From assembly GCA_021462845.1 (NCBI GenBank), contig JAJTXU010000023.1:1-34166 (forward strand): 34,166 nucleotides of DNA, in the 5' to 3' direction. A program made the translations under genes and the position numbers. The DNA comes from Anaerolineales bacterium. Lineage in GTDB: Bacteria > Chloroflexota > Anaerolineae > Anaerolineales > Villigracilaceae. Every line of letters begins with the position of its first letter. Within the stretch, counting starts at the first letter, position 1. The notes beneath the pieces are model-generated. The model worked only from the letters and a program-made list of their open reading frames with translations. It was not told the origin of the DNA and did not search any database. Positions 12,770-33,714 of this stretch are shown here, piece after piece.

Positions 12770-14401
12770 CTAGTCTATCAACAAAGCATCCAAAATATCT
12801 TCAATTGCCTGTGAATGATTTACCTGAATGAACAATCGCTTTCCATACTCCATTTTGTAATCGAGTTTTCCTAAAGATTGAGAAACCCCATCGCCTTCCA
12901 CAGCAATGGAACTCATTTCAAACATAATCTTTGCGCCGTCCGTCCAATTCTTTTGCGCCTTTTCCACAAGTTGACTAACAATATTTTTGTTTGATATATG
13001 AAGACTGATTATTGTTACCCCAGTATCTTTCAACAATGCCGTTGCCTCAGGCAAAAATTTATCCCTAAATTCACCGTCAGAAATCGTAATTAATATCTTC
13101 TTGTGCCGAGCAAAGTTTATGTCCATTAAACGCAATGAGGCTTTTTTTATTGCGTTGTGTATCGGGGTTGTGCCAAACATGAATTTGTCAGAATATATTT
13201 CTTGTTCTAAAGCATCTGGCAAAACGTTGACTATATCTTTTATCGACCTAACAACCTCACGACTGGAAGCTAAATCTAACCATTCGTAAAATCTGGATTT
13301 CGCGCTTTTCTGAAAGGCGTCTTTGAAAAGATCGTTTACGACTATTCTTACAAATCGTCTTAATTTCTCCCATACAATTTTTTGAATTGTCTCTTCAGTC
13401 ATCTTTTTGACGTGCGCATTGTCAATTCTTCCGCCAATTAGATTAGTTATCACATTCAGTCGCGCGCGGTTTGATAGCCAAGTAAGCTGGATTTTGGGAC
13501 GAACATCCTGTTCAATGTGGTCGTAGATGTTCTTGGCAAGGCTAAAAACCCTGTTTTCATCGAAAGTGTCAAAAACCTTCTGGGGAGAATGCCCAAGCGT
13601 TAGTAATTCCAAAACTTGGTCGCTTTGTTCCGACACAAACTCATCCAACGTTGAGCGAATGTGTTTCTCATATTCGTTAACTGAACTGTCCGCGATTTCT
13701 TTGGCTACGACTTTTATGCTATCAAGATACGTATCACTTTCATTGAATGAAGTTAGTCTTATCCGCTCTTCTCTTTTGACAAACCATGCGCTCAATTTAT
13801 CTGTTTGGTGGTCTAGCCATTCGCTTTCTTTCAAAATCTTTCTGTTTAACAAATAGGTCAATAATCTTCCTCTCAACCCATACTTTAGTTTTCGTAGAGC
13901 AGTTTGATAAAGGCTTTCTCTGATAAACGACACTAAATCATCGTACAGATTTTCTCGAAAATCTATCTTTTCTAATAGTTGGTTCGAATAATTTGACCAT
14001 TTCTCATTAATTACACTCTCGATTTCATCAAGGTCGGCTTTTGTTGGAATGATTTCAGTCAATGCCAAGATATCGCATACTACAGTTGCGTCAATCAACG
14101 TTTCTGCTGTCTCGTTCAAAGGATTTTCTCTGTTTCGTGACAGGTCAACGAATTGCCATTTCTTGTGTGGTCGTTTAAAACCCATTCCAATACAGAAGAT
14201 TTCAACATCCCTTGTCTCGGGCTTAGACGAGTAAACAGATTTTATCTTCCTGATTTGACGATTCAGTCCGTCTTTTATCACCTCAATCTGAGGTAATCTT
14301 TTGCCCTCTTTATTTTTCCAGTTTTTTCTCATAGAACTAGAGACATCAATAATTATTCCAACCAACAGGGGCTTGTTTGACGGCGACAACTTTGAATCCA
14401 T
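12770..14401 (-). CDS. Cytoplasmic vWA protein with large helical insertion
   Basis: The protein has 543 residues. The N-terminus has a vWA first strand and MIDAS: LLVGIIIDVSSSM (DxSxS at 19-23). The MIDAS Thr (FGTTPIHNAI, about 411) and the ITISDGEF strand (about 438-445) come only after roughly 260 residues of predominantly helical, charged sequence (about 150-405), so the domain is split by an insertion. There is no signal peptide or membrane segment. The C-terminal ~55 residues (KIMFEMSS...RLFIQVN...IEDILDALLID) match the end of the upstream protein (TLFQCSS...MFLQVN...LEELIDI), so the two are paralogs. The start is 2 bases after the upstream stop, with AGGG 9 bases before it. The function is unknown. 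The DNA is AT-richer than its neighbours. Confidence 0.85.
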   Translation of the reverse strand: MDSKLSPSNKPLLVGIIIDVSSSMRKNWKNKEGKRLPQIEVIKDGLNRQIRKIKSVYSSKPETRDVEIFCIGMGFKRPHKKWQFVDLSRNRENPLNETAETLIDATVVCDILALTEIIPTKADLDEIESVINEKWSNYSNQLLEKIDFRENLYDDLVSFIRESLYQTALRKLKYGLRGRLLTYLLNRKILKESEWLDHQTDKLSAWFVKREERIRLTSFNESDTYLDSIKVVAKEIADSSVNEYEKHIRSTLDEFVSEQSDQVLELLTLGHSPQKVFDTFDENRVFSLAKNIYDHIEQDVRPKIQLTWLSNRARLNVITNLIGGRIDNAHVKKMTEETIQKIVWEKLRRFVRIVVNDLFKDAFQKSAKSRFYEWLDLASSREVVRSIKDIVNVLPDALEQEIYSDKFMFGTTPIHNAIKKASLRLMDINFARHKKILITISDGEFRDKFLPEATALLKDTGVTIISLHISNKNIVSQLVEKAQKNWTDGAKIMFEMSSIAVEGDGVSQSLGKLDYKMEYGKRLFIQVNHSQAIEDILDALLID

Positions 14402-14403
14402 AA

Positions 14404-15651
14404 TTAGTCCCTAAGCGGGCTAGTAATGATGTCGATTAATTCTTCGAGCATTTCTTGTTGATTGACCTGTAAGAACATCTTGGCTTTTGCTGGAACCGCC
14501 CATGATTTCTCAATAGCCATTTCTGAAACCGCTTTGCCTATTTTGCCATTTGTGTCCAATTCTGAGGAGCATTGAAACAATGTTTTAGCCTCGCTGTTCC
14601 ATTTGGAGTTTTCTTTTACGAACAAGGTTTGAGATGGCATCATATCATTTTTACCGATAAAGCCAATTACGAGAGTTATTCCATCTTCCTTGATCGCGTT
14701 TGATACTTCAATTAAATCCGAATAATTTCCGTCTGTAAATTTTCCGTTAGTAACAACAAGTAACAAAGGTTGGTACTTTTTTCCTTTTTGTTCGGTTGCA
14801 AATCTTTCGCGGACTATTTTCAAGGATTGCACAAGCGGAGCGTCGTTAAATTCCATGTCAACGTATTGTGCAAGAATACCTGTTCGGTATTTTTTCCAAT
14901 ATTTGTTTAGTTCCGCCGCATTTGGCGTGTATGGTAACTCTTCGGTGTCGGCAGCAAGTTTTAGCAAATCCCTAATAGGATCGGTAGGAACTTCTACATC
15001 AGAAGTAAGACCTAATCGTCTTGCAAACGAGTCTAACCCTTTTAGCGCGTTCCCAAAGCCAAAACCATAGAAAAATAAAGAGAACTTTGGAAGGATATCT
15101 TTTGAGTGCGGATGTTCGCAATAAGCTATTGATTTGTTGACCAATGTGTTTAGTGCTTTGATTAGCCTCTCAAAGAAGTCTTCATTCTTTTCGGATATTT
15201 CATATATTGAATCAAAAGTGGATTTTGATAAATCAAGAACTACGCCGATTAGAAAAGGTGTGACTGTACTTGCCCGTTGGGTACTAGGTTTATTTGCCAG
15301 TACATCCCGTTTGAATGAAGAGTCTTGAATCGACAAGGATATTTCGAGCTTTTCAATGTAATCCCCGCCACCTGTTTGTATATTTCGTGAATTTTGTCCA
15401 GTAGAAATTTGGGTCGAATCCCCACTTATTTCAATTTTCACGTCTTGCTTAATGTCTTTATTGCCTTTCAGGAGTTCAAGCCAATCTTTAATGCCCGTTC
15501 CTGCAGCGAGAATGCCCCCTAATAAAACTCCAACTATCGAAAGCAAATCGCCCAAACTTCTTGACGTTGTTGGTTTTAAAGCAAGATAAACTGCTGTTCC
15601 AAGCAATGCAACGCCAAGGACAAGCAATGAGAAAGCGATTATTTTCTTCAT
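14404..15651 (-). CDS. Membrane-anchored vWA protein with degenerate MIDAS
   Basis: The protein has 415 residues. Two N-terminal hydrophobic helices (about 4-25 and 35-55) are followed by a Gly/Asn/Thr-rich stretch with SGDSTQISTGQNSRNIQTGG and GDYIE, a pattern I associate with signalling and conflict proteins in Chloroflexota and cyanobacteria. The vWA domain begins FLIGVVLDLSKST (DxSxS at 140-144). The position equivalent to the partner's MIDAS Thr reads FNDAP instead of FGTTP, and the later SDGE becomes TNGK, so metal binding may be lost. It is the first gene of the pair and should tether the partner at the membrane. No RBS is obvious at the ATG, and a TATAAT lies about 40 bases upstream. 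The function is unknown. Confidence 0.85.
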   Translation of the reverse strand: MKKIIAFSLLVLGVALLGTAVYLALKPTTSRSLGDLLSIVGVLLGGILAAGTGIKDWLELLKGNKDIKQDVKIEISGDSTQISTGQNSRNIQTGGGDYIEKLEISLSIQDSSFKRDVLANKPSTQRASTVTPFLIGVVLDLSKSTFDSIYEISEKNEDFFERLIKALNTLVNKSIAYCEHPHSKDILPKFSLFFYGFGFGNALKGLDSFARRLGLTSDVEVPTDPIRDLLKLAADTEELPYTPNAAELNKYWKKYRTGILAQYVDMEFNDAPLVQSLKIVRERFATEQKGKKYQPLLLVVTNGKFTDGNYSDLIEVSNAIKEDGITLVIGFIGKNDMMPSQTLFVKENSKWNSEAKTLFQCSSELDTNGKIGKAVSEMAIEKSWAVPAKAKMFLQVNQQEMLEELIDIITSPLRD

Positions 15652-23559: not shown

Positions 23560-26500
23560 TCAAATGACCTTGAGATTCGCCAGATTTGCCGACAATCTTT
23601 TTATTCCAACAGACTCAAACACCACATCCACGATTTCGTCGTCATCTTGAAGTTTGCTGTCGAGGACGATGCCTTCGCCCCACGAGGGATGTTTGATGCG
23701 CGTCCCAGCGCGGTATTTGGCTGGGGTGACTGAAGCAGGCCTCCCCTGCGTCTGATGCGTTTGCCACTTCGTCTCAGGAACCTGTCCGCGAATGGAACGT
23801 CCCGTGCGAGTTTTGCCGACGAGCAAATCCGCTGGCACGTCATCGAGATAACGCGAAGGGAAAGTTTCTTCTTGCGAGCCGCGTCCGCCGCGCTGGATCG
23901 AACGGAGGAGATAGAGTTTATCTTTGGCGCGCGTGATGCCGACGTAAAAGAGGCGGCGCTCTTCCTCCATTGATTCGGGGTTGTCGAACGAACGGCTGTG
24001 CGGAAGAATGCCATCGTCGAGACCGACGATGAAGACCGCGCCGAATTCGAGTCCTTTCGCGGCGTGGAGGGTGAGAAGCGTTGGCACGTTGCCATCTGAG
24101 ATCGTGTCTTGATCGGAGATGAGCGCGATGTTTTCGAGAAATTCATCGAGCGTGCGTGTGGAATATTCATCGGCGAGGCGTTTGAGTTCGACGACGTTCT
24201 CCCAGCGGTCTTCGCCTTCTTCGGATTGATCGTCAATATATTCTTTGAAGTTGAGGTCTTTCACCACGCGATCAAAAAGTTCTGGCACGTTGAGCGTTTG
24301 CGCGGCGATGCGCCACGTGGCGAGCAGTCCGCCGAAATCTGCGAGCGGAAGCGCGGCGCGGCCCGTGAACGATTTCCAATGCGAGGATTGATCGCCGCGC
24401 GCGAGGTCAATGAGCACGCTACCGGGCTGCATCTCGTTTTGCCGCGCGACCATGTGCAACGTGGTGAGAGTCTTCTCGCCGATGCCGCGCGGCGGGACGT
24501 TGATGATGCGGTCGAGGCTGGCTTCGTCGGCGGGGTTGTGGATGAGTCGCAGGAACGCGATGATGTCTTTGACTTCGCGCCGTCCATAAAATCTCTGCGC
24601 GCCGACGAGGCGATAGGGAAGCCGCGCTTGCAGGAACGCTTCTTCGATGAGGCGTGACATGGCGTTGGTGCGATACATCACCGCGCAATCGCCTGGCTCG
24701 AATTGCCGCGAGGCGACGAGTTGCGCGATGCTGTCCACGACAAACGAGGCTTCGGCGTAATCGTCGGGCGCTTCGTAGAAAAATATTTTCTCGCCTTCGC
24801 CTCTATCGCTGAACAATTTTTTCTTGCGGCGGTTGTGAGCGCGGTCAATGACGCCCATCGCCGCGTCGAGGATGTTTTGGCGTGAGCGATAATTTTGTTC
24901 GAGGAGAATGGTCTGCGCGTCGGGAAAGTCCTGCTCGAAGCGATGGATGTTGCGGTAGTCCGCGCCGCGCCAGGCATAGATGGAGTTGTGAACGACCATG
25001 CCATTAGCGATATAGTTGTGGAGATTTTCCACTTCAAAGTCGTAAACAACCCCATCGTACGATTCCTGCGTCACTTCAATGATTTCGTCCTCGGTAATTT
25101 TCCCATCCTTTTCAACGGCGACAATCATGGATGGGTGTAAATGACTGGCGGGCATCAAACTGAATTTAGAAGCGATGGGCGCTTTCCCTTTGTCTACTAG
25201 AAAAGCCCCAGTAACGATCTCAGCGTCATTTGCCGCTTCGCTTAATTTTTGAGCGGCTTCCTGAATGTCATCGTAATGCAAACGGTTAACGCCTACTCGC
25301 CAGTTATTTCTGCTGCGAATGCGTGGGTTGTAACCGACGGCTTTTAATTCTTTTGCCAGATTCAGTTCACTACTCCATAAATCTACGCGATGAGCATGCC
25401 AGGGAGATTCTTCTGTAACGCGACCATCGCCAAAGTAACGCAAGTTGACAATGTTGCGGTACGTCCCTTGTGGGATGTAATGAGGGAACTGTAAATCCAT
25501 TCCCAAATCAGTCATTAACAGATCCGCATTGGCGTCTGTGTCTATTGCATTGAATAACTTGTCAATATATTCCTGTGCCATTTGCATTCTTCGACCACGA
25601 ACATGGAAAACAGACGTTGGAATTCTGTAGTTTATGGAAAAGTAGGATTCCCAATAATGTGCTTCGTTTCTATTCGAGCAAACTTTCAATACCCACATTT
25701 TGGTTGCGTTTTCCTGATTGCTTCGTACTTGTAACCCAACTTTCAAACGAGTCCCATCGCTACGGGCATGTGATGCAATCCCAATTCGATAACCTTTGTC
25801 CTTACGATACATCAAGTAAACGTAATGCAACCCCGTTTTCATCCCAAGTCTTGAAAAAACAATGTGATTTGGCGTGACTTTGATGATTTGACCTGTACGG
25901 GTAACTACTCTAACAAGATTGCCTTTGAAATTCCGCTTGCCGATATGAGTAACGCGACAAGGCAAGGTGGATCCTCGTCCGCTGGCGGCTAAAACAGTAT
26001 CACCTTTTTTCAGAACTTCAATTTTCTTTTGTCCATTCGGTGTTTGTATTCTTGTGCCTGTAGGGAAACATTGGTCGGGATCGCCCACGCAGAAAATATT
26101 CTTATTAAAGGAAGCGAGTTCCTTCACTAGCGCATATTGGGCAAGGTTAGTGTCTTGAAACTCATCCACCAACACGTGACGAAAACGCTGGGCATATTTA
26201 TCGCGCACAGATGGGTTCTCTTCGAGCAGGCGCGCGGTGTAAACGAGAATGTCGTCAAAGTCCACCGCGTTGCTGGCGATGAGCCGCTTTTGATATTCGG
26301 CGTAGACGCGCTTCACTACCTCGTCACGATACGTCAGCGTGGGGTAATCGTCCGCGCCGATGAGCTCGTTCTTGGCGCGCGAGATCGAGGCGTGCACACT
26401 CGCGGGGCGATACAATTTCTCGTTGATCTTCAATTCACGGATGACATTCTTGACGATGCGTTCTTGATCGTCCGCGTCAAAGATCACGAAATTCGATTCG

Positions 26501-26814
26501 ATGGGGAGGTGTTCCGCCTCGCGCCGCAGAATCCGCGCGCAGATCGAATGGAACGTGCCGAGCATGATCCCCTCGGTGGCTTGATCGGGCAACAACTTCT
26601 TGACGCGCTCCTGCATCTCTTTCGCGGCTTTGTTCGTGAACGTGACCGCGAGAATCTGCCACGGGCGGACTCCCTCCTCCGCGATGAGGTATGCGATCCG
26701 CTGGGTCAACACCCGCGTCTTCCCGGACCCCGGACCTGCCACGACCAACACAGGTCCGTTCCCCGCTGTGACGGCGGCGCGTTGTTGAGGGTTGAGTTTA
26801 TCGAGGAAGGACAT
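23560..26814 (-). CDS. pcrA: ATP-dependent DNA helicase PcrA/UvrD with an in-frame intein
   Basis: The precursor has 1084 residues, of which 362 (249-610) are an intein, leaving a 722-residue helicase of normal PcrA length. Superfamily 1A motifs: LNPQQRAAV (Q motif), AGPGSGKT (26-33), TFTNKAAKEM, VDEFQDTN (motif II), GDPDQ/SIYAWRGADY (motif III, split by the intein), LEQNYRSRQNIL, TLLTLHAAKGLEF (motif V), EERRLFYVGITRAKDKLYLL (motif VI). The C-terminal TRIKHPSWGEGIVLDSKLQD is the PcrA tail domain linked to RNA polymerase contact. PcrA/UvrD unwinds DNA in repair and conflict resolution. The split is before Ser611, in the ATP-contacting Gln-Ser motif, so splicing should be needed for activity. 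Confidence 0.96.
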   Translation of the reverse strand: MSFLDKLNPQQRAAVTAGNGPVLVVAGPGSGKTRVLTQRIAYLIAEEGVRPWQILAVTFTNKAAKEMQERVKKLLPDQATEGIMLGTFHSICARILRREAEHLPIESNFVIFDADDQERIVKNVIRELKINEKLYRPASVHASISRAKNELIGADDYPTLTYRDEVVKRVYAEYQKRLIASNAVDFDDILVYTARLLEENPSVRDKYAQRFRHVLVDEFQDTNLAQYALVKELASFNKNIFCVGDPDQCFPTGTRIQTPNGQKKIEVLKKGDTVLAASGRGSTLPCRVTHIGKRNFKGNLVRVVTRTGQIIKVTPNHIVFSRLGMKTGLHYVYLMYRKDKGYRIGIASHARSDGTRLKVGLQVRSNQENATKMWVLKVCSNRNEAHYWESYFSINYRIPTSVFHVRGRRMQMAQEYIDKLFNAIDTDANADLLMTDLGMDLQFPHYIPQGTYRNIVNLRYFGDGRVTEESPWHAHRVDLWSSELNLAKELKAVGYNPRIRSRNNWRVGVNRLHYDDIQEAAQKLSEAANDAEIVTGAFLVDKGKAPIASKFSLMPASHLHPSMIVAVEKDGKITEDEIIEVTQESYDGVVYDFEVENLHNYIANGMVVHNSIYAWRGADYRNIHRFEQDFPDAQTILLEQNYRSRQNILDAAMGVIDRAHNRRKKKLFSDRGEGEKIFFYEAPDDYAEASFVVDSIAQLVASRQFEPGDCAVMYRTNAMSRLIEEAFLQARLPYRLVGAQRFYGRREVKDIIAFLRLIHNPADEASLDRIINVPPRGIGEKTLTTLHMVARQNEMQPGSVLIDLARGDQSSHWKSFTGRAALPLADFGGLLATWRIAAQTLNVPELFDRVVKDLNFKEYIDDQSEEGEDRWENVVELKRLADEYSTRTLDEFLENIALISDQDTISDGNVPTLLTLHAAKGLEFGAVFIVGLDDGILPHSRSFDNPESMEEERRLFYVGITRAKDKLYLLRSIQRGGRGSQEETFPSRYLDDVPADLLVGKTRTGRSIRGQVPETKWQTHQTQGRPASVTPAKYRAGTRIKHPSWGEGIVLDSKLQDDDEIVDVVFESVGIKRLSANLANLKVI
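24985..26070 (-). other. Intein in PcrA motif III, with a GIY-YIG-like insert
   Basis: It begins with Cys (CFPTGTRIQTPNG, block A), has TPNH at intein residues 66-69 (block B) and ends DFEVENLHNYIANGMVVHN, with the penultimate His and terminal Asn, followed by Ser as the +1 nucleophile. All class 1 splicing residues are therefore present. Between blocks B and F are about 240 residues without a LAGLIDADG motif. Residues 83-87 (YVYLM) and 94-99 (YRIGIA) plus Glu141 (in HYWESYF) fit the GIY-YIG nuclease pattern. A following segment with LAKELKAVGY and NNWRVGVNRL may bind DNA. The DNA here is less GC-rich than the flanking exteins. Confidence 0.9.
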
Positions 26815-27620: not shown

Positions 27621-28610
27621 ATGCCTGAACTATTACTGGATGTGAAAGGGCTGGAAACAACATTCAAAACTCCAGATGGGATTGTCCATGCGGTTAATGG
27701 CGTTTCGTTTGGTCTTAAGGAAGGGGAAACCCTCGGCGTTGTAGGGGAGAGCGGGTGTGGTAAAAGCGTTACCATGCTCTCGGTATTGGGATTGATCCCA
27801 TCCCCTCCGGGAAAAATCAAATCGGGCACGGCCCACTTTTTCGGTCGCGACCTCCTCAAAATGACAACCGCTGAAATCCGCCAGATCCGTGGCGCGCAGA
27901 TCGGCATGGTCTTTCAAGACCCCATGACATCTCTGAACCCGGTCTTGACGATTGGGCGACAATTGGAGGAACCGCTGGTTGTGCACCTCGGCATGACGCG
28001 CGCGCAAGCCACCATCCGCGCGGCAGAGTTGCTGGCCATGGTGGGAATTCCAAACGCCAAAGACCGATTATCCGATTACCCTCATCAATTTTCCGGCGGG
28101 ATGCGCCAACGGGTCATGATCGCCATGGCGCTTGCCTGCTCGCCCCAAGTGCTGATTGCCGATGAACCCACCACCGCGTTGGATGTAACCATTCAGGCGC
28201 AGATTACCGATCTCGTAAAACGACTGCGCAGTGAACTAGGCATGGCGATTATTTGGATCACTCACGATCTGGGCGTGGTCGCCGGTCTGGCGCAACGTGT
28301 GATCGTTATGTACGGCGGCTTTATCATTGAAGAATCAACCGTGAATGACTTGTACGCCAACCCCACGCACCCGTACACGATCGGTTTACTGGGCAGTCTC
28401 CCGCGCGTCGATGCCTCCGGGCATGAAACCCTGACCTCGATCGAAGGCTCGCCGCCGCTTCTATATGAAAAACCTACTCGCTGTCCCTTTGCGCCGCGAT
28501 GTAAATGGGCAATGGAACGATGCTGGAAAGAAAACCCGACCCTCGAAACCATTGCGCCGGATCACCGCGTGGCATGCTGGGTGGATGTGAAGACAGGGAG
28601 AGCGCGTTGA
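27621..28610 (+). CDS. dppD: Peptide ABC transporter ATP-binding protein (DppD/OppD type)
   Basis: The protein has 329 residues. Walker A is GESGCGKS, the Q-loop [13 protein letters not shown], the signature [15 protein letters not shown], Walker [14 protein letters not shown] and the switch His WITHDLG. The C-terminal extension with [15 protein letters not shown] and [14 protein letters not shown] is the oligopeptide-ABC C-terminal domain with its Cys cluster (iron-sulfur site in related proteins). It powers import together with the second ATPase, which starts 1 base after this stop. Confidence 0.95.
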
Positions 28611-28611
28611 T

Positions 28612-29601
28612 ATGACTGATAACAATGTGTTGGTACGCGTAGATAATCTTGTAAAACATTTCCCGATCATGCGGGGCTTGCTCCAGCGCCAGGTGGGCGC
28701 GGTGCGCGCGGTGGATGGGGTCTCATTTGAATTAAAACGCGGTGAAACGCTCGGGCTCGTAGGCGAATCCGGTTGTGGGAAGTCTACCACCGGTCGCGCC
28801 GTATTACAGTTGTATCGCCCCACCTCGGGCAGTGTTCACTTTGACGGGGCAGACCTGACGAAGATCAAAGGCGAGGAATTGCGCGCCATGCGCCGCAAGA
28901 TGCAAATGATCTTTCAGGATCCGTACGCCAGCCTGAACCCGCGCATGACCGTGGGTGAGATCGTGCGCGAACCGTTGATCGTCCACAACGTGGCGACCGA
29001 ATCGGAAGCCAATGAGCGCGTCAAACAACTGCTCGAACTTGTCAAGTTGAACCCATCGTTCTCCACGCGCTACCCGCATGAATTTTCCGGCGGACAACGC
29101 CAACGCATCGGCATCGCGCGCGCGCTGGCGTTACAGCCGTCTTTCATTGTTTGCGACGAACCCATCTCGGCTCTGGATGTTTCGATCCAGGCGCAAGTGG
29201 TGAACTTACTCGAGGAACTCCAGAAAGAATTCAACCTGACCTACCTGTTCATTGCGCACGATCTATCGATGGTGCGCCATATCAGCGACCGGGTGGCGGT
29301 GATGTATCTGGGCGTTATCGTGGAACTTTCCACCCGAGATGAACTATACAGTCATCCCCTTCACCCCTATTCGCAAGCTCTATTATCGGCGGTGCCAATC
29401 CCCGATCCTTCGGCTGAAACGGCGCGTCAACGCATCATCCTGACTGGCGACGTTCCGTCGCCCGCCAATCCGCCCTCCGGTTGTCGCTTCCGCACCCGTT
29501 GCCCGATCGCTGAAGCAAAATGCGCGGAATCTCGACCGGATTTCCGTGAAATAAAGCCAGGCCACTTTGTTGCCTGTTTCTTTGCCGATCGATATTTGTA
29601 A
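28612..29601 (+). CDS. dppF: Peptide ABC transporter ATP-binding protein (DppF/OppF type)
   Basis: The protein has 329 residues. Walker A is GESGCGKST, the Q-loop [14 protein letters not shown], the signature [15 protein letters not shown], Walker [13 protein letters not shown] and the switch His FIAHDLSM. The C-terminal [15 protein letters not shown] and [14 protein letters not shown] is the OppF-type tail. The GQRQ signature marks it as the DppF/OppF member of the pair. It overlaps functionally with dppD and is followed by a MITE-like hairpin before the binding protein gene. Confidence 0.95.
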
Positions 29602-29603
29602 CA

Positions 29604-29683
29604 GGGCTTACGCATAATTGGCGTTCTCTAACGCCAACGGGCGCGTTAGAGAACGCGCCCTACACAAGGTTTTGCGTAAGTCC
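29604..29683. mobile_element. MITE-like palindromic element between dppF and the binding protein gene
   Basis: The ends GGGCTTACGCA and TGCGTAAGTCC are inverted with one mismatch. Inside, GGCGTTCTCTAACGCC and GGCGCGTTAGAGAACGCGCC form a second strong stem. It is about 80 bp with no ORF. It interrupts the operon and might act as a partial terminator. Confidence 0.6.
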
Positions 29684-29784
29684 TATGTAAGATAAAACTT
29701 GAAAGGAGGTGGTTGCTACCCCCGATACCGCTGCCCATTCGTCAAACGTCGTATCCAAATTTTAATTTTGTGAGGAAAAGAAAA

Positions 29785-31581
29785 ATGCGTAAACTGTTTA
29801 CCTTACTGAGCCTCTTTGTGCTCGCCAGCATGATCCTTTCAGCATGCGGTCCCACACCGGCGGCAACTGATGCTCCTGCTCAACCTGAGCAACCCGCGGC
29901 TACCGATGCTCCGGCTCAACCCGAAGCGACCGAAGCCCCGACCGAAGCCAAAGAGGCTGTCTTGCGGATCAACACCGGTACCTACCCCGATGTGATCGAC
30001 CCGCAGAAATCCTCCTTCGTCAATGAAATTGGTCACCTCGACAAGATCTACATGGGCTTGACCACATTGAACGAAAAACTCGAAACCGTCCCCGGCGCCG
30101 CTGATTCGTGGACGTTCAACGATGACGCCACGCAATTGGTCTTCACCCTGAAGTCCGGCCTGCTCTACAGCGATGGTTCCGTGCTCAACGCCAAGCGCTT
30201 TGAGTATGCCTTCCAACGTAATATTGACCCCGCCACCGCCGGCGAATACGCCTCCATCACCGACGAGATCGTTGGCGCTCCTGAATGGCGCGCCGCCGAC
30301 ACCGCCGCTGAAGGATATGATCCCGAAACCTTCAAAGCCGCGTTGGGCGTGAAAGCCTCGCATGCCGATGGTTCTGCTTGCGCCGACTACGAAGATACCG
30401 CCTGCGATACCCTCACCCTGAACTTCTCGAAACCCGCCCCGTACTTCGCGACCATTGCAGGGATCTGGGTTGGTTATCCTGCCAAGGAAGAGAACATTGC
30501 TGAAGGTGGAGACATCTGGTGGACCAGCTCCAAGTTCCAAATTGGTAACGGACCTTTCATCTGGAAGAGCGTGGATCCATTCGTCAAGTCCGTCTTTGTC
30601 CCGAACCCCAACTTTGTGGGTGGCGCCGTTCCAACCTACTCGATGGAATATAGCTACATCACAGACTCTGCTGTTGCCTTCGAAGCCTACCTCAATAACG
30701 AGTTCGATATCGTCGGCTCCGCGGCGGAAGACCTCCCTGTGATCGACGCTGACGCGGATCTGACAGCCCAGCACGTGAAGTATGCTGGCTCGTGCACGAT
30801 CAAGATACAATACAGTCTGCACCCCACCTGGAATGGTCAGCCGAACCCCTTCACCGACAAGAAAGTCCGCGAAGCCTTCGCTTTGGCGTTCGATGCCGAA
30901 TCCTGGGCGCGTGATGTGGATGGCTCCCTGTCCCTGCCGACCTGGACATGGATTCCTCCCGGATACCCTGGATACGATGCCAACACCCCGTTGCACTTCG
31001 ATCCGGAAGCCGCCAAAGCCGCTCTTGCCGCCGCATCTGAGCCTTTCAACTCTGCTGAAAAGTTGAACGCGATGGGACTCAAGATGGCATTTGCCGACTC
31101 TGCCCGCAACCGCCAACGCCACGAATGGATTGCCGCTCAATACAAGGAAATCCTGGGCGTGGATCTGGCGCTTGACCCGGTTGAGCCTACCACCTACACC
31201 GCCATCCAGAAAGACCCGGACACCTACCCGCTTCTTTCCCGCGGCGGCTGGTGCGCGGACTATGCGGACCAACAGAACTGGCTGAGCGTCTACTGGCGCA
31301 CAGGCACCTTCTCCTCCCGCTGGGGCTATTCGAACCCTGAGTTCGATGCTTTGGTGGATGAAGCAGATACAACAGTTGACCCCGCCAAGCGCAATGAACT
31401 GTATGCCCAAGCCCAGCAAATCCTGCTCAACGATATCCCCGGCGCTTTCGGCTACAACTCGCTCAATCACTACCTCGTGAAACCGTGGGTTACGGGTTAC
31501 CTGACCACCCCGCAAGATCACATGTTCCCCGGCGATCTCACACCGTGGACGATCACCATCGATACCTCAATGATCCCGTAA
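29785..31581 (+). CDS. dppA: Peptide-binding lipoprotein (SBP family 5)
   Basis: The protein has 598 residues from the ATG at 29785 (GAGGA 9 bases upstream). It is chosen because it starts the signal peptide; an open TTG at 29713 sits 2 bases behind a very strong AAAGGAGGT but would put 24 residues before the signal. The lipobox ILSAC is at about 20-24. An Ala/Pro/Glu/Thr linker with the repeated unit ATDAPAQPE follows. The mature domain has VIDPQKSS, GLTTLNEKLETVPGAADSW, FTLKSGLLYSDGSVLNAKRF and DVDGSLSLPTWTWIPPGYPGY, as in DppA/OppA-like proteins. It captures peptides outside the membrane and delivers them to the permease pair. Confidence 0.94.
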   Translation: MRKLFTLLSLFVLASMILSACGPTPAATDAPAQPEQPAATDAPAQPEATEAPTEAKEAVLRINTGTYPDVIDPQKSSFVNEIGHLDKIYMGLTTLNEKLETVPGAADSWTFNDDATQLVFTLKSGLLYSDGSVLNAKRFEYAFQRNIDPATAGEYASITDEIVGAPEWRAADTAAEGYDPETFKAALGVKASHADGSACADYEDTACDTLTLNFSKPAPYFATIAGIWVGYPAKEENIAEGGDIWWTSSKFQIGNGPFIWKSVDPFVKSVFVPNPNFVGGAVPTYSMEYSYITDSAVAFEAYLNNEFDIVGSAAEDLPVIDADADLTAQHVKYAGSCTIKIQYSLHPTWNGQPNPFTDKKVREAFALAFDAESWARDVDGSLSLPTWTWIPPGYPGYDANTPLHFDPEAAKAALAAASEPFNSAEKLNAMGLKMAFADSARNRQRHEWIAAQYKEILGVDLALDPVEPTTYTAIQKDPDTYPLLSRGGWCADYADQQNWLSVYWRTGTFSSRWGYSNPEFDALVDEADTTVDPAKRNELYAQAQQILLNDIPGAFGYNSLNHYLVKPWVTGYLTTPQDHMFPGDLTPWTITIDTSMIP

Positions 31582-31610
31582 GTCTGGCGTTTCATTGAAC
31601 TGAACTACCC

Positions 31611-31642
31611 CTGGGCTGGGGGACCACGGTTCCCCAGCCCAG
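31611..31642 (+). terminator. Stem-loop between the binding protein and permease genes
   Basis: CTGGGCTGGGG and CCCCAGCCCAG form an 11-bp GC-rich stem. The downstream sequence has only short T-runs (TTGCTTTTG), so it may cut transcription partly and protect the upstream mRNA, giving more binding protein than permease. Confidence 0.55.
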
Positions 31643-31714
31643 ACCTTGCTTTTGTATGCAGTCTTTTGAATTTTGCCGCTTGGTTGTTTTTATTCCGCTT
31701 ACAAGTGAGTTGCC

Positions 31715-32716
31715 ATGACCACCTACATCATCCGAAGATTACTCTGGTTAATCCCCGTCCTGCTCACCGTCTCTGCGGTGACGTTCGTAGTCATGCGCAG
31801 CGCCCCGGGCGGTCCCTGGGATACTGACGCGGAACGTCGTCAGGTGGATGCCGCCACAGCCAAATCGCTGGCGGCTTATTATGGGTTAGACAAGCCCATG
31901 TGGCGGCAGTTTTATGCCTATGTCATTGGCGATACGAATAGCCAGACCAAGGAATGGGTCTGTGGCGTGGTCTGTGGCAACTTGGGTCCGTCTTACCGCC
32001 AGCGCGGACGCACCGTGCAAAATATTCTCTTTTCGCCCCCCGAAGGGAAATCTTTCTGGCAAAGCCGTTTTGGGTATTCGGTCCGCCTCGGGGTATTGGC
32101 GCTTTCCATGGCGATTTTTATCGGGATTCCATTGGGCATCATTGCCGCGTTGAAACAAAACACGATTGTCGATTACACCGCTTTGTTCATCGCGACAAGC
32201 GGCATATCGGTGCCCAGTTTTGTGCTCGCAATTTTTCTGATCATTATTTTTGCTTCGCGCCTGCATTGGATCGATATCGTCGTGGATGATTGGACACAGA
32301 TCAAGTACTGGTTCATGCCCATGGCGGTGTTGGGTTTTGGAACACTGGCGTATACCGCCCGCCTGACGCGCTCTTCCATGCTGGAGGTGATGAGGCAGGA
32401 TTACGTCCGCACCGCGCGCGCCAAAGGACTGGCGGAGCGTGTCGTGATCTTCATCCACATGCTGAAGAATGCGCTCATCCCTGTCATCACGATCCTTGGT
32501 CCCGCGCTGGCGGGGCTGGTCACCGGCTCGTTCATCATCGAAACGATGTTCAGTTTCCCGGGCATGGGGCGCGCCTATGTGCAGGCAATCGGCCAGCGCG
32601 ATTACTCCATGATCATGGGAACCACCCTTATCTATGCTTTGCTGGTCGCGGTCGCTAACTTGAGCGTGGATATTGTTTATGTGTTTATCGATCCGCGCAT
32701 CCGTCTGGAAGAATAA
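31715..32716 (+). CDS. dppB: Peptide ABC transporter permease (DppB type)
   Basis: The protein has 333 residues. It starts TYIIRRLLWLIPVLLTVSAVTFVVMRSAPGGPW, the DppB N-terminus, with an external insertion before the core. The core has about five further helices and the EAA loop ARAKGLAERVVIFIHMLKNALIP, which docks onto the ATPases. It ends with GTTLIYALLVAVANLSVDIVY and DPRIRLEE. It forms the translocation pore with the next gene's product. The gene ends 11 bases before it. Confidence 0.95.
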   Translation: MTTYIIRRLLWLIPVLLTVSAVTFVVMRSAPGGPWDTDAERRQVDAATAKSLAAYYGLDKPMWRQFYAYVIGDTNSQTKEWVCGVVCGNLGPSYRQRGRTVQNILFSPPEGKSFWQSRFGYSVRLGVLALSMAIFIGIPLGIIAALKQNTIVDYTALFIATSGISVPSFVLAIFLIIIFASRLHWIDIVVDDWTQIKYWFMPMAVLGFGTLAYTARLTRSSMLEVMRQDYVRTARAKGLAERVVIFIHMLKNALIPVITILGPALAGLVTGSFIIETMFSFPGMGRAYVQAIGQRDYSMIMGTTLIYALLVAVANLSVDIVYVFIDPRIRLEE

Positions 32717-32727
32717 GAGGACTTGAC

Positions 32728-33714
32728 ATGACTGCTCAAACTACAGCGTCCGGCAAGATCGCCGAGTTCAACGATGTTTTTCGCCCAAGTAAAAGCCTGG
32801 GGCAGGAGGCTTGGTCGAGGCTGGTTCGTAACAAGGCATCCATGTTCGGTTTGGTTGTGATCATCTTCTTCGTATTCCTGGCTGCATTTGCCTCTGTCAT
32901 TTCCCCGATGAACCCGCTTGAATTGCATGGCGGAAAACGATTTCTCCCTCCGCCATTTGACCCGGGCGCCACGAATATCAAAGCCGAGCCTGAATTCTTG
33001 CTAGGCACCGATTCATTAGGACGCGATACCCTCAGTCGCACCATTTATGGCGCGCGCGTTTCCATCGTGGTTGGCTTTCTTCCCACAATTATCATCCTCC
33101 TGCTGGGAACCACAGTCGGCATGTTTGCAGGGTATATTGGCGGACGCACAGACAACTTCCTCATGCGCCTGACAGACGTGATCTATGCGTTCCCAGACTT
33201 GCTGTTCTTCATTATCATCATGGTTGCCTTGCGCGATACATTTATCGGGCAATTTATGAACGGCTTGGTTTTGTTGTTTGCCGCGCTTGCCATTGTAAAC
33301 TGGGTGGGTGTGGCTCGCCTCGTGCGCGGTCAGGTCTTGTCCATCAAGCAAAAAGAGTTTGTCGAAGCGGCTCGTTGTATTGGCGCCAAAGACCACCGCA
33401 TTATGTTCCGCCACATTCTCCCTAACTGCCTCAGCCCGTTGATTGTGAGCGCGGCATTTCTCATCCCGGGCTTGATCATCACAGAAGCCATTCTTGGCTA
33501 TTTGGGAGTTGGACTGCGCCCCGCCACCGACAGCGCGAGTTTCTTCATCACCAGTTGGGGCGCGCTCATGCTGGATGGGCAGTCCGCAATCAACTCACAG
33601 CCTTACCTGTTGCTTGCGCCCGCCACCTGTGTTGCATTGGTCGTGCTTGCCTTTACCTTTCTCGGCGACGGTTTGCGCGACGCGCTCGATCCTCGCATGC
33701 GCGGCACGCAATAG
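32728..33714 (+). CDS. dppC: Peptide ABC transporter permease (DppC type)
   Basis: The protein has 328 residues. The cytoplasmic N-terminus ends RLVRNKASMFGLVVIIFFV (OppC N-terminal TM). It then has FLLGTDSLGRDTLSRTIYGARVS, the DppC-specific signature, and the EAA loop EAARCIGAKDHRIMFRHILPNCLSPLIV. It ends ALVVLAFTFLGDGLRDALDPRMR. It completes the importer and is followed by the operon terminator. The ATG has AGAGGA at about 7 bases. Confidence 0.95.
   Translation: MTAQTTASGKIAEFNDVFRPSKSLGQEAWSRLVRNKASMFGLVVIIFFVFLAAFASVISPMNPLELHGGKRFLPPPFDPGATNIKAEPEFLLGTDSLGRDTLSRTIYGARVSIVVGFLPTIIILLLGTTVGMFAGYIGGRTDNFLMRLTDVIYAFPDLLFFIIIMVALRDTFIGQFMNGLVLLFAALAIVNWVGVARLVRGQVLSIKQKEFVEAARCIGAKDHRIMFRHILPNCLSPLIVSAAFLIPGLIITEAILGYLGVGLRPATDSASFFITSWGALMLDGQSAINSQPYLLLAPATCVALVVLAFTFLGDGLRDALDPRMRGTQ

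Follow-up and report, generated by a model that had tools for sequence, protein, structure and literature searches.

Which type of nuclease is carried by the intein that interrupts the pcrA/uvrD helicase gene of an Anaerolineales bacterium, and does this nuclease still help the intein to spread? Inteins have been described with LAGLIDADG, more rarely with HNH, nucleases. An earlier note on this DNA proposed that the insert resembles a GIY-YIG nuclease and is either a rare combination or an inactive relic.

Architecture of the intein

The window, that is, the whole stretch of 34,166 nucleotides that was analyzed, contains the interrupted helicase gene at positions 23560..26814 of the minus strand (1084 codons plus the stop codon), and all features of this gene given below are on the same strand. 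The intein (24985..26070) has 362 residues, Cys1 to Asn362, which are residues 249-610 of the gene. It begins after Gln248 and ends before Ser611, within what we take to be helicase motif III. The N-extein (26071..26814, residues 1-248), delimited by comparison with uninterrupted homologues, ends in GDPDQ, and the C-extein (23560..24984, stop codon included) starts with SIYAWRG, the serine of which is Ser+1. The reading frame is open and complete through the helicase gene. The G+C content of the intein is 43.7% versus 57.0% for the exteins, and the source genome (4.17 Mb, 362 contigs) has one copy of the intein.

All splicing residues are present: Cys1, TPNH, Asp344, the His-Asn pair and Ser+1. 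The intein matches TIGR01445, TIGR01443, PF14890, PF01079 and PF13403 above their cut-offs, and its predicted structure has the Hint fold. The N-terminal Hint half (25843..26070, intein residues 1-76; TIGR01445) carries TPNH at residues 66-69, and the C-terminal half (24985..25164, residues 303-362; TIGR01443) carries the His-Asn pair. Cys1, a block B TxxH, a C-terminal His-Asn and a +1 nucleophile are those of a class 1 intein. The agreement of motifs and Hint profiles confirms, on the level of sequence, that 24985-26070 is a complete, full-length class 1 intein within a PcrA/UvrD helicase, as the earlier note had claimed with exact coordinates.

Between the Hint halves lie the predicted GIY-YIG nuclease domain (25591..25833, intein residues 80-160), a linker (25459..25590, residues 161-204) with two predicted helices (166-175 and 178-189), and a second module (25171..25458, residues 205-300), on which the earlier note was silent. 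The second module has a predicted strand-strand-helix-strand-helix succession and is probably DNA-binding; there is no firm fold match for it among the structure-search results.

Elsewhere in the window, an ordinary peptide ABC transporter cluster (27621-33714, plus strand) comprises two ATPases, a solute-binding protein and two permeases, and two frames of 543 and 415 amino acids (12770-15651, minus strand) have no Pfam family at E 1e-5. Two frames of 901 and 851 amino acids in the same genome match LAGLIDADG_3 (G000:C307:19271-19513 and G000:C319:21996-22211) and possibly contain other inteins.

The predicted nuclease domain

In the AlphaFold model of the intein (pLDDT 95.7), a Hint fold surrounds a strand-strand-helix-strand-helix core, which is composed of strands 82-89 and 93-100, helix 112-119, strand 124-131 and helix 134-148. 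Judged by the order of elements alone, this core is compatible with the three-strand core of I-TevI and UvrC. No GIY-YIG structure was found among the PDB fold matches, which were obtained with a query other than the nuclease domain by itself.

In the available part of a survey (PMC1564403), GIY-YIG enzymes are usually defined by the GIY and YIG motifs, a central arginine and a C-terminal glutamate. The window's domain has these elements in a variant form, VY-X9-RIG with R116 and E141, the plain tyrosine of YIG being absent. Tyr85 (25816..25818) is the putative counterpart of the GIY tyrosine and Arg95 (25786..25788) occupies the place of the YIG tyrosine, while Arg116 (25723..25725) and Glu141 (25648..25650) are the candidates for the central arginine and the metal-binding glutamate. 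In an alignment of 325 inteins (320 of 361 proteins, 41 of which were missed by the boundary pattern, and five loci), Tyr85, Met87, Gly93, Glu120, Trp126 and Pro151 are conserved at 100% when expressed to two decimals, and Arg95, Gly97, Arg116 and Glu141 at 99%. Tyr85, Arg95, Gly97, Arg116, Glu120, Trp126 and Glu141 are retained in 16 phage copies, of which two have the same nuclease domain sequence. The pattern that picked the rows of this phage-containing alignment itself demands Tyr85, Arg95 and Gly97; by this pattern, 10 of 341 sequences were excluded, and seven of these 10 are altered at position 85, 95 or 97.

The spacing V84-Y85-X9-R95-I96-G97 is identical to that of the motif (I/V)-Y-X9-K-I-G reported for R.Hpy188I and its family, in which a lysine takes the place of the YIG tyrosine (PMC2630997, available in part). 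R.Hpy188I belongs to the GIY-YIG restriction enzymes, and its structure in a co-crystal with DNA has been solved, according to the accessible portion of PMC4081073. One relative of the window's intein, P0137, reads KIG, with lysine at the position of Arg95.

Profile comparisons

The curated family cut-off for GIY-YIG was reached by no single comparison. The window's own nuclease domain matched no Pfam family at E 1, and at E 10 the only matches were to Hint and chance families. When 21 diverse domains were compared with Pfam one by one, PF01541 was the family matched by the largest number, namely by four (best E 0.0076, below the cut-off). T5orf172 was matched by one of the 21 (E 0.015, also below the cut-off). 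Three further families were matched, among them the unrelated YwpF by two domains, with a best E (0.0043) better than that for PF01541.

In a ranking test, a profile of 24 domains was run against 7,854 open frames of at least 50 codons, taken from the collected loci after removal of the intein-family frames. This set contained about 52 GIY-YIG loci or genes (30 + 13 loci and nine T4 genes). Known GIY-YIG proteins took 15 of the top 20 places, with T4 I-TevII at rank 4; these 15 places are not independent because many are close kin. Rank 1 was a chance frame (E 0.12), and the best GIY-YIG frame had E 1.2, none being individually significant.

In hhalign comparisons, the 24-row profile scored 25.7 against 29 PF01541-type rows (best of 150 shuffles 21.9; reversed 14.4) and 22.3 against 23 mixed GIY-YIG rows (best of 150 shuffles 16.3; reversed 14.1). 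Without the truncated row L115, the score against the PF01541 set was 21.7, which one of 150 shuffles exceeded (22.0); leaving out each of the other 28 rows in turn gave 25.0-26.1. Earlier comparisons with the PF01541 set had given 16.1 for a 331-row alignment (one of 10 shuffles gave 17.3) and 23.7 for 21 balanced rows (best of 60 shuffles 16.7). No signal was obtained against I-TevI and seven Seg proteins alone (16.9) or against T5orf172 alone (11.8). As the hhalign score is sensitive to the single row L115, the ranking test is given more weight.

The same comparisons do not place the insert in either of the usual classes of intein nucleases. The insert has no LAGLIDADG match in Pfam, the hhalign scores against LAGLIDADG_3 are at shuffle level both for the nuclease part (13.8) and for the second module (13.5), and Asp215 is kept only in the Chloroflexota copies. 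Membership of the HNH class fails likewise, with no Pfam match and an hhalign score of 15.0 against four T4 Mob proteins.

The order of fold elements in the model, the motif spacing and the profile ranking suggest that the nuclease part of the insert is very probably a divergent GIY-YIG nuclease. This is in line with the earlier note, which had described the insert as GIY-YIG-like rather than LAGLIDADG or HNH, no curated cut-off having been passed.

Relatives and sequence constraint

Protein searches at E 0.001 were seeded with the window's intein, a Clostridium copy (42% identical) and a Thiotrichaceae copy (30%). They found 268, 395 and 1366 relatives, respectively, with the best 120 of each listed and a possible overlap between the sets; the description of this intein as a rare combination does not hold against such numbers. 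A scan of GTDB contigs found 28 loci, 26 of which match the intein over its whole length. Besides Chloroflexota, the records of the 28 loci include Clostridium, Elusimicrobia, Parcubacteria and Thiotrichaceae. The insertion site GD..Q|SIY is common to the seven of these loci that were inspected.

Selective constraint was compared between parts of 22 distinct Chloroflexota intein genes out of 27 (the rest being four exact copies of others and L022, which is 43% identical). The pN/pS ratio is 0.14 for the nuclease part, 0.19 for the linker, 0.19 for the second module, 0.29 for the N-terminal Hint part and 0.15 for the C-terminal Hint part; only the ranking counts because synonymous sites are near saturation, and the nuclease part is only slightly ahead of the C-terminal Hint part. 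All 22 inteins retain the seven motif residues. By these sequence measures, the splicing part is under no stronger constraint than the nuclease part. The earlier note had pointed to RIG in place of the canonical YIG as a possible sign of inactivity. RIG is no such sign, because Arg95 is 99% conserved in the 325 inteins, a lysine stands there in R.Hpy188I (PMC2630997, in the part available) and the constraint on the nuclease part is no weaker than that on the Hint halves. The reading of the nuclease as an inactive relic is thus unlikely.

Some relatives are altered at key positions, namely P0059, P0081 and P0118 at Arg95, P0108 and P0289 at Gly97 and P0350 at Tyr85, and possibly represent decaying nucleases. 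Four intein-bearing proteins of 836-853 amino acids (P0132, P0134, P0144 and P0169) are named 3'-5' exonuclease and have no N-terminal helicase domain listed; they might be split genes or have mis-set starts.

Distribution, transfer and decay

At E 1e-8, 27 of the 152 genomes of the window's family match the intein, 24 with a full-length form and three with a reduced form (G064, G456 and G417). Among the same-genus genomes listed, the intein is present in two of 18. Four same-genus genomes that lack the intein each have an uninterrupted pcrA, with an N-terminal part 91-95% identical. In the tree, the two same-genus inteins group together (91/89), and so loss of the intein within the genus is possible.

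The two inteins of genus g4 fall apart in the tree, on starred branches. The exteins of one of them, G453, are 88 and 90% identical to those of its genus mate G457 and 78% identical to those of G080 from genus g2, whereas its intein is 72% identical to that of G457 and 86% identical to that of G080. As the intein and extein identities run in opposite ways, the intein has clearly moved between genera. The correlation of intein and extein identities is 0.957 (306 proteins), which together with the grouping of the same-genus inteins indicates that much of the descent is vertical. Inteins are more alike than exteins by more than 10 points in 1.35% of 46,665 pairs, the extreme being 0.617 versus 0.395. 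The patchy distribution, the empty alleles and the horizontal transfer are those of a homing element. A plasmid search for the intein gave no match.

The reduced form in G064 has kept the Hint ends and lost most of the insert. L042 (G032) and L043 (G076) are inteins at the same site that have no nuclease and have kept a stretch similar to the second module. Their sequences indicate that G064, L042 and L043 are decay stages of the intein.

In comparison with the nearest empty allele, the identity of the flanks falls to 0.76 and 0.78 next to the site; other bins are equally low, and most of the near-site differences lie on the side of the empty allele. The empty pcrA site of a same-genus genome (L062, G337) reads GDQDQ|SVYS, with odd codons and residues, which could be due to chance, an altered target or a scar.

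Phage inteins and other host genes

A query with the phage nuclease domain found 67 phage records. In Escherichia coli phages, for example phi92 and PaulScherrer, the intein interrupts a UvrD-like helicase. Gene 34.33 of Bacillus subtilis phage SPO1 has an annotated intein of 275 residues at GDDDQ|SMY, in which the nuclease domain is present and the second module is absent. In Streptococcus suis phage Javan575 (L188:1358-3469), the short form of the intein is situated in an N6/N4 DNA methylase, and the element is therefore not confined to helicases.

One helicase gene on a viral contig can contain several GIY-YIG inteins: two in L085, two in L088 and three in L092. Their insertion sites are HN|CQDL, GD..Q|SIY, HN|SKQIP and HN|STKGAEW, of which the first is presumably in motif II, the second in motif III and the last in motif V.

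Proposed mechanism

By combining the sequence and model data, it is possible to describe how the element might work. Quite probably, it is a PcrA/UvrD intein with a GIY-YIG-type homing nuclease as insert; this nuclease would attack helicase genes free of the intein, and their repair would introduce a copy of it. Once the protein has been made, the Hint domain would excise the intein and join the exteins. Uninterrupted helicase genes would be cleaved by the GIY-YIG domain, and in the long form the second module might guide the cutting by reading the DNA around the codons of GDxDQ|SIYxWRG. Tyr85 would activate a water molecule, Arg95 would stand for the YIG tyrosine, and Arg116 and Glu141 would hold the phosphate and the metal. 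The break would then be repaired from the interrupted allele, copying the intein into the cut gene. The interrupted allele itself would be immune to cutting because its site is split.

The GIY-YIG fold might have been kept while DNA cutting was lost, in which case the intein would persist by splicing and mostly vertical descent. The RIG sequence, the correlation of 0.957, the grouping of the same-genus inteins, the reduced forms G064, L042 and L043, and the changed key residues in P0059, P0081, P0118, P0108, P0289 and P0350 are all compatible with such a loss. The conservation of Arg95, the use of lysine by R.Hpy188I, the constraint on the nuclease part, the motif residues kept in 22 of 22 Chloroflexota inteins and the recent transfer between genera, however, make it an unlikely explanation. 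It is improbable indeed that the insert has another nuclease or DNA-binding fold, for example that of a worn LAGLIDADG unit, and resembles GIY-YIG only in its motif. No curated cut-off was reached, the second module with its FGDGR and its strand-helix order is slightly like half a LAGLIDADG unit, and LAGLIDADG entries are found in the Foldseek list with a probability of at most 0.20; but both parts score at shuffle level against LAGLIDADG_3, Asp215 is not retained outside the Chloroflexota copies, and GIY-YIG proteins fill most of the top 20 ranks.

The intein could also be a domesticated switch, in which certain conditions would restrain the splicing of the helicase and the insert would have a regulatory role instead of homing. 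Such a role would agree with the interruption of a key motif in a DNA-repair helicase and with the age and wide retention of the intein. It would also agree with the available part of a review (PMC5874633), in which proteins of DNA replication and repair are the main location of inteins. Yet close relatives manage without the intein, it moves between genera, and it is present in phages, in a DNA methylase and at several positions in helicases, which leaves the switch with very little probability.

It is likely, moreover, that the GIY-YIG homing inteins form a large class that has been overlooked. Nested in Hint domains, their distinct catalytic variant Tyr-X9-Arg-Ile/Val/Leu-Gly would have spread through bacterial PcrA/UvrD and phage helicases. 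It would have occupied four or more conserved-motif sites there, with as many as three of them in one phage gene, and have jumped into a phage DNA methylase. If so, a further nuclease fold has been captured by protein splicing, in a widespread bacterial intein, and arginine joins the series of tyrosine and lysine at one catalytic position. The long, short and decayed forms together with the several insertion sites represent a record of the element's history. As SPO1 and the E. coli phages carry members of this class, laboratory phages and strains are suitable for a test of the idea.

Comparison with known systems

A literature search of partial coverage found no report of a nested GIY-YIG intein, and a prior description is possible. 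In a 2006 survey of the GIY-YIG enzymes, no member was known in inteins, as far as the available part of the text goes (PMC1564403).

The arrangement of the window's intein, with a nuclease between the Hint halves and presumed homing, is that of PI-SceI, PI-PfuI and TliVMA. These are nested LAGLIDADG enzymes, whereas the window's insert has no LAGLIDADG or HNH profile match and a predicted GIY-YIG core instead. T4 I-TevI, I-TevII and the Seg proteins share with the window's domain the motif order of Tyr, basic or Tyr-Ile/Val-Gly, and Glu. They are, however, encoded in introns or as free genes and not nested in an intein, and I-TevI and Seg as a set have no significant profile match with the window's family. 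The R.Hpy188I family has the same Val/Ile-Tyr-X9-basic-Ile-Gly spacing with a basic residue for the YIG tyrosine (PMC2630997, in the part available), a likeness drawn from the published motif and not from direct sequence comparison; the basic residue is lysine there and arginine, inside an intein, in the window.

According to the accessible part of a 2020 paper (PMC7891396), a GIY-YIG reading frame lies between the two halves of the split intein AceL NrdHF. The GIY-YIG enzyme is located there at the usual position of the nuclease, as in the window; by the same part of that paper, it has a gene of its own between the intein halves, whereas the window's nuclease is nested in a continuous intein. 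Further counterparts are the UvrD inteins of phages SPO1 and CampHawk and of phi92 and PaulScherrer, which have the same nuclease domain, the SPO1 site being GDDDQ|SMY. They are recorded as inteins or helicases, with the type of nuclease unnamed in the feature tables (for SPO1, in the part available) and in the accessible CampHawk text.
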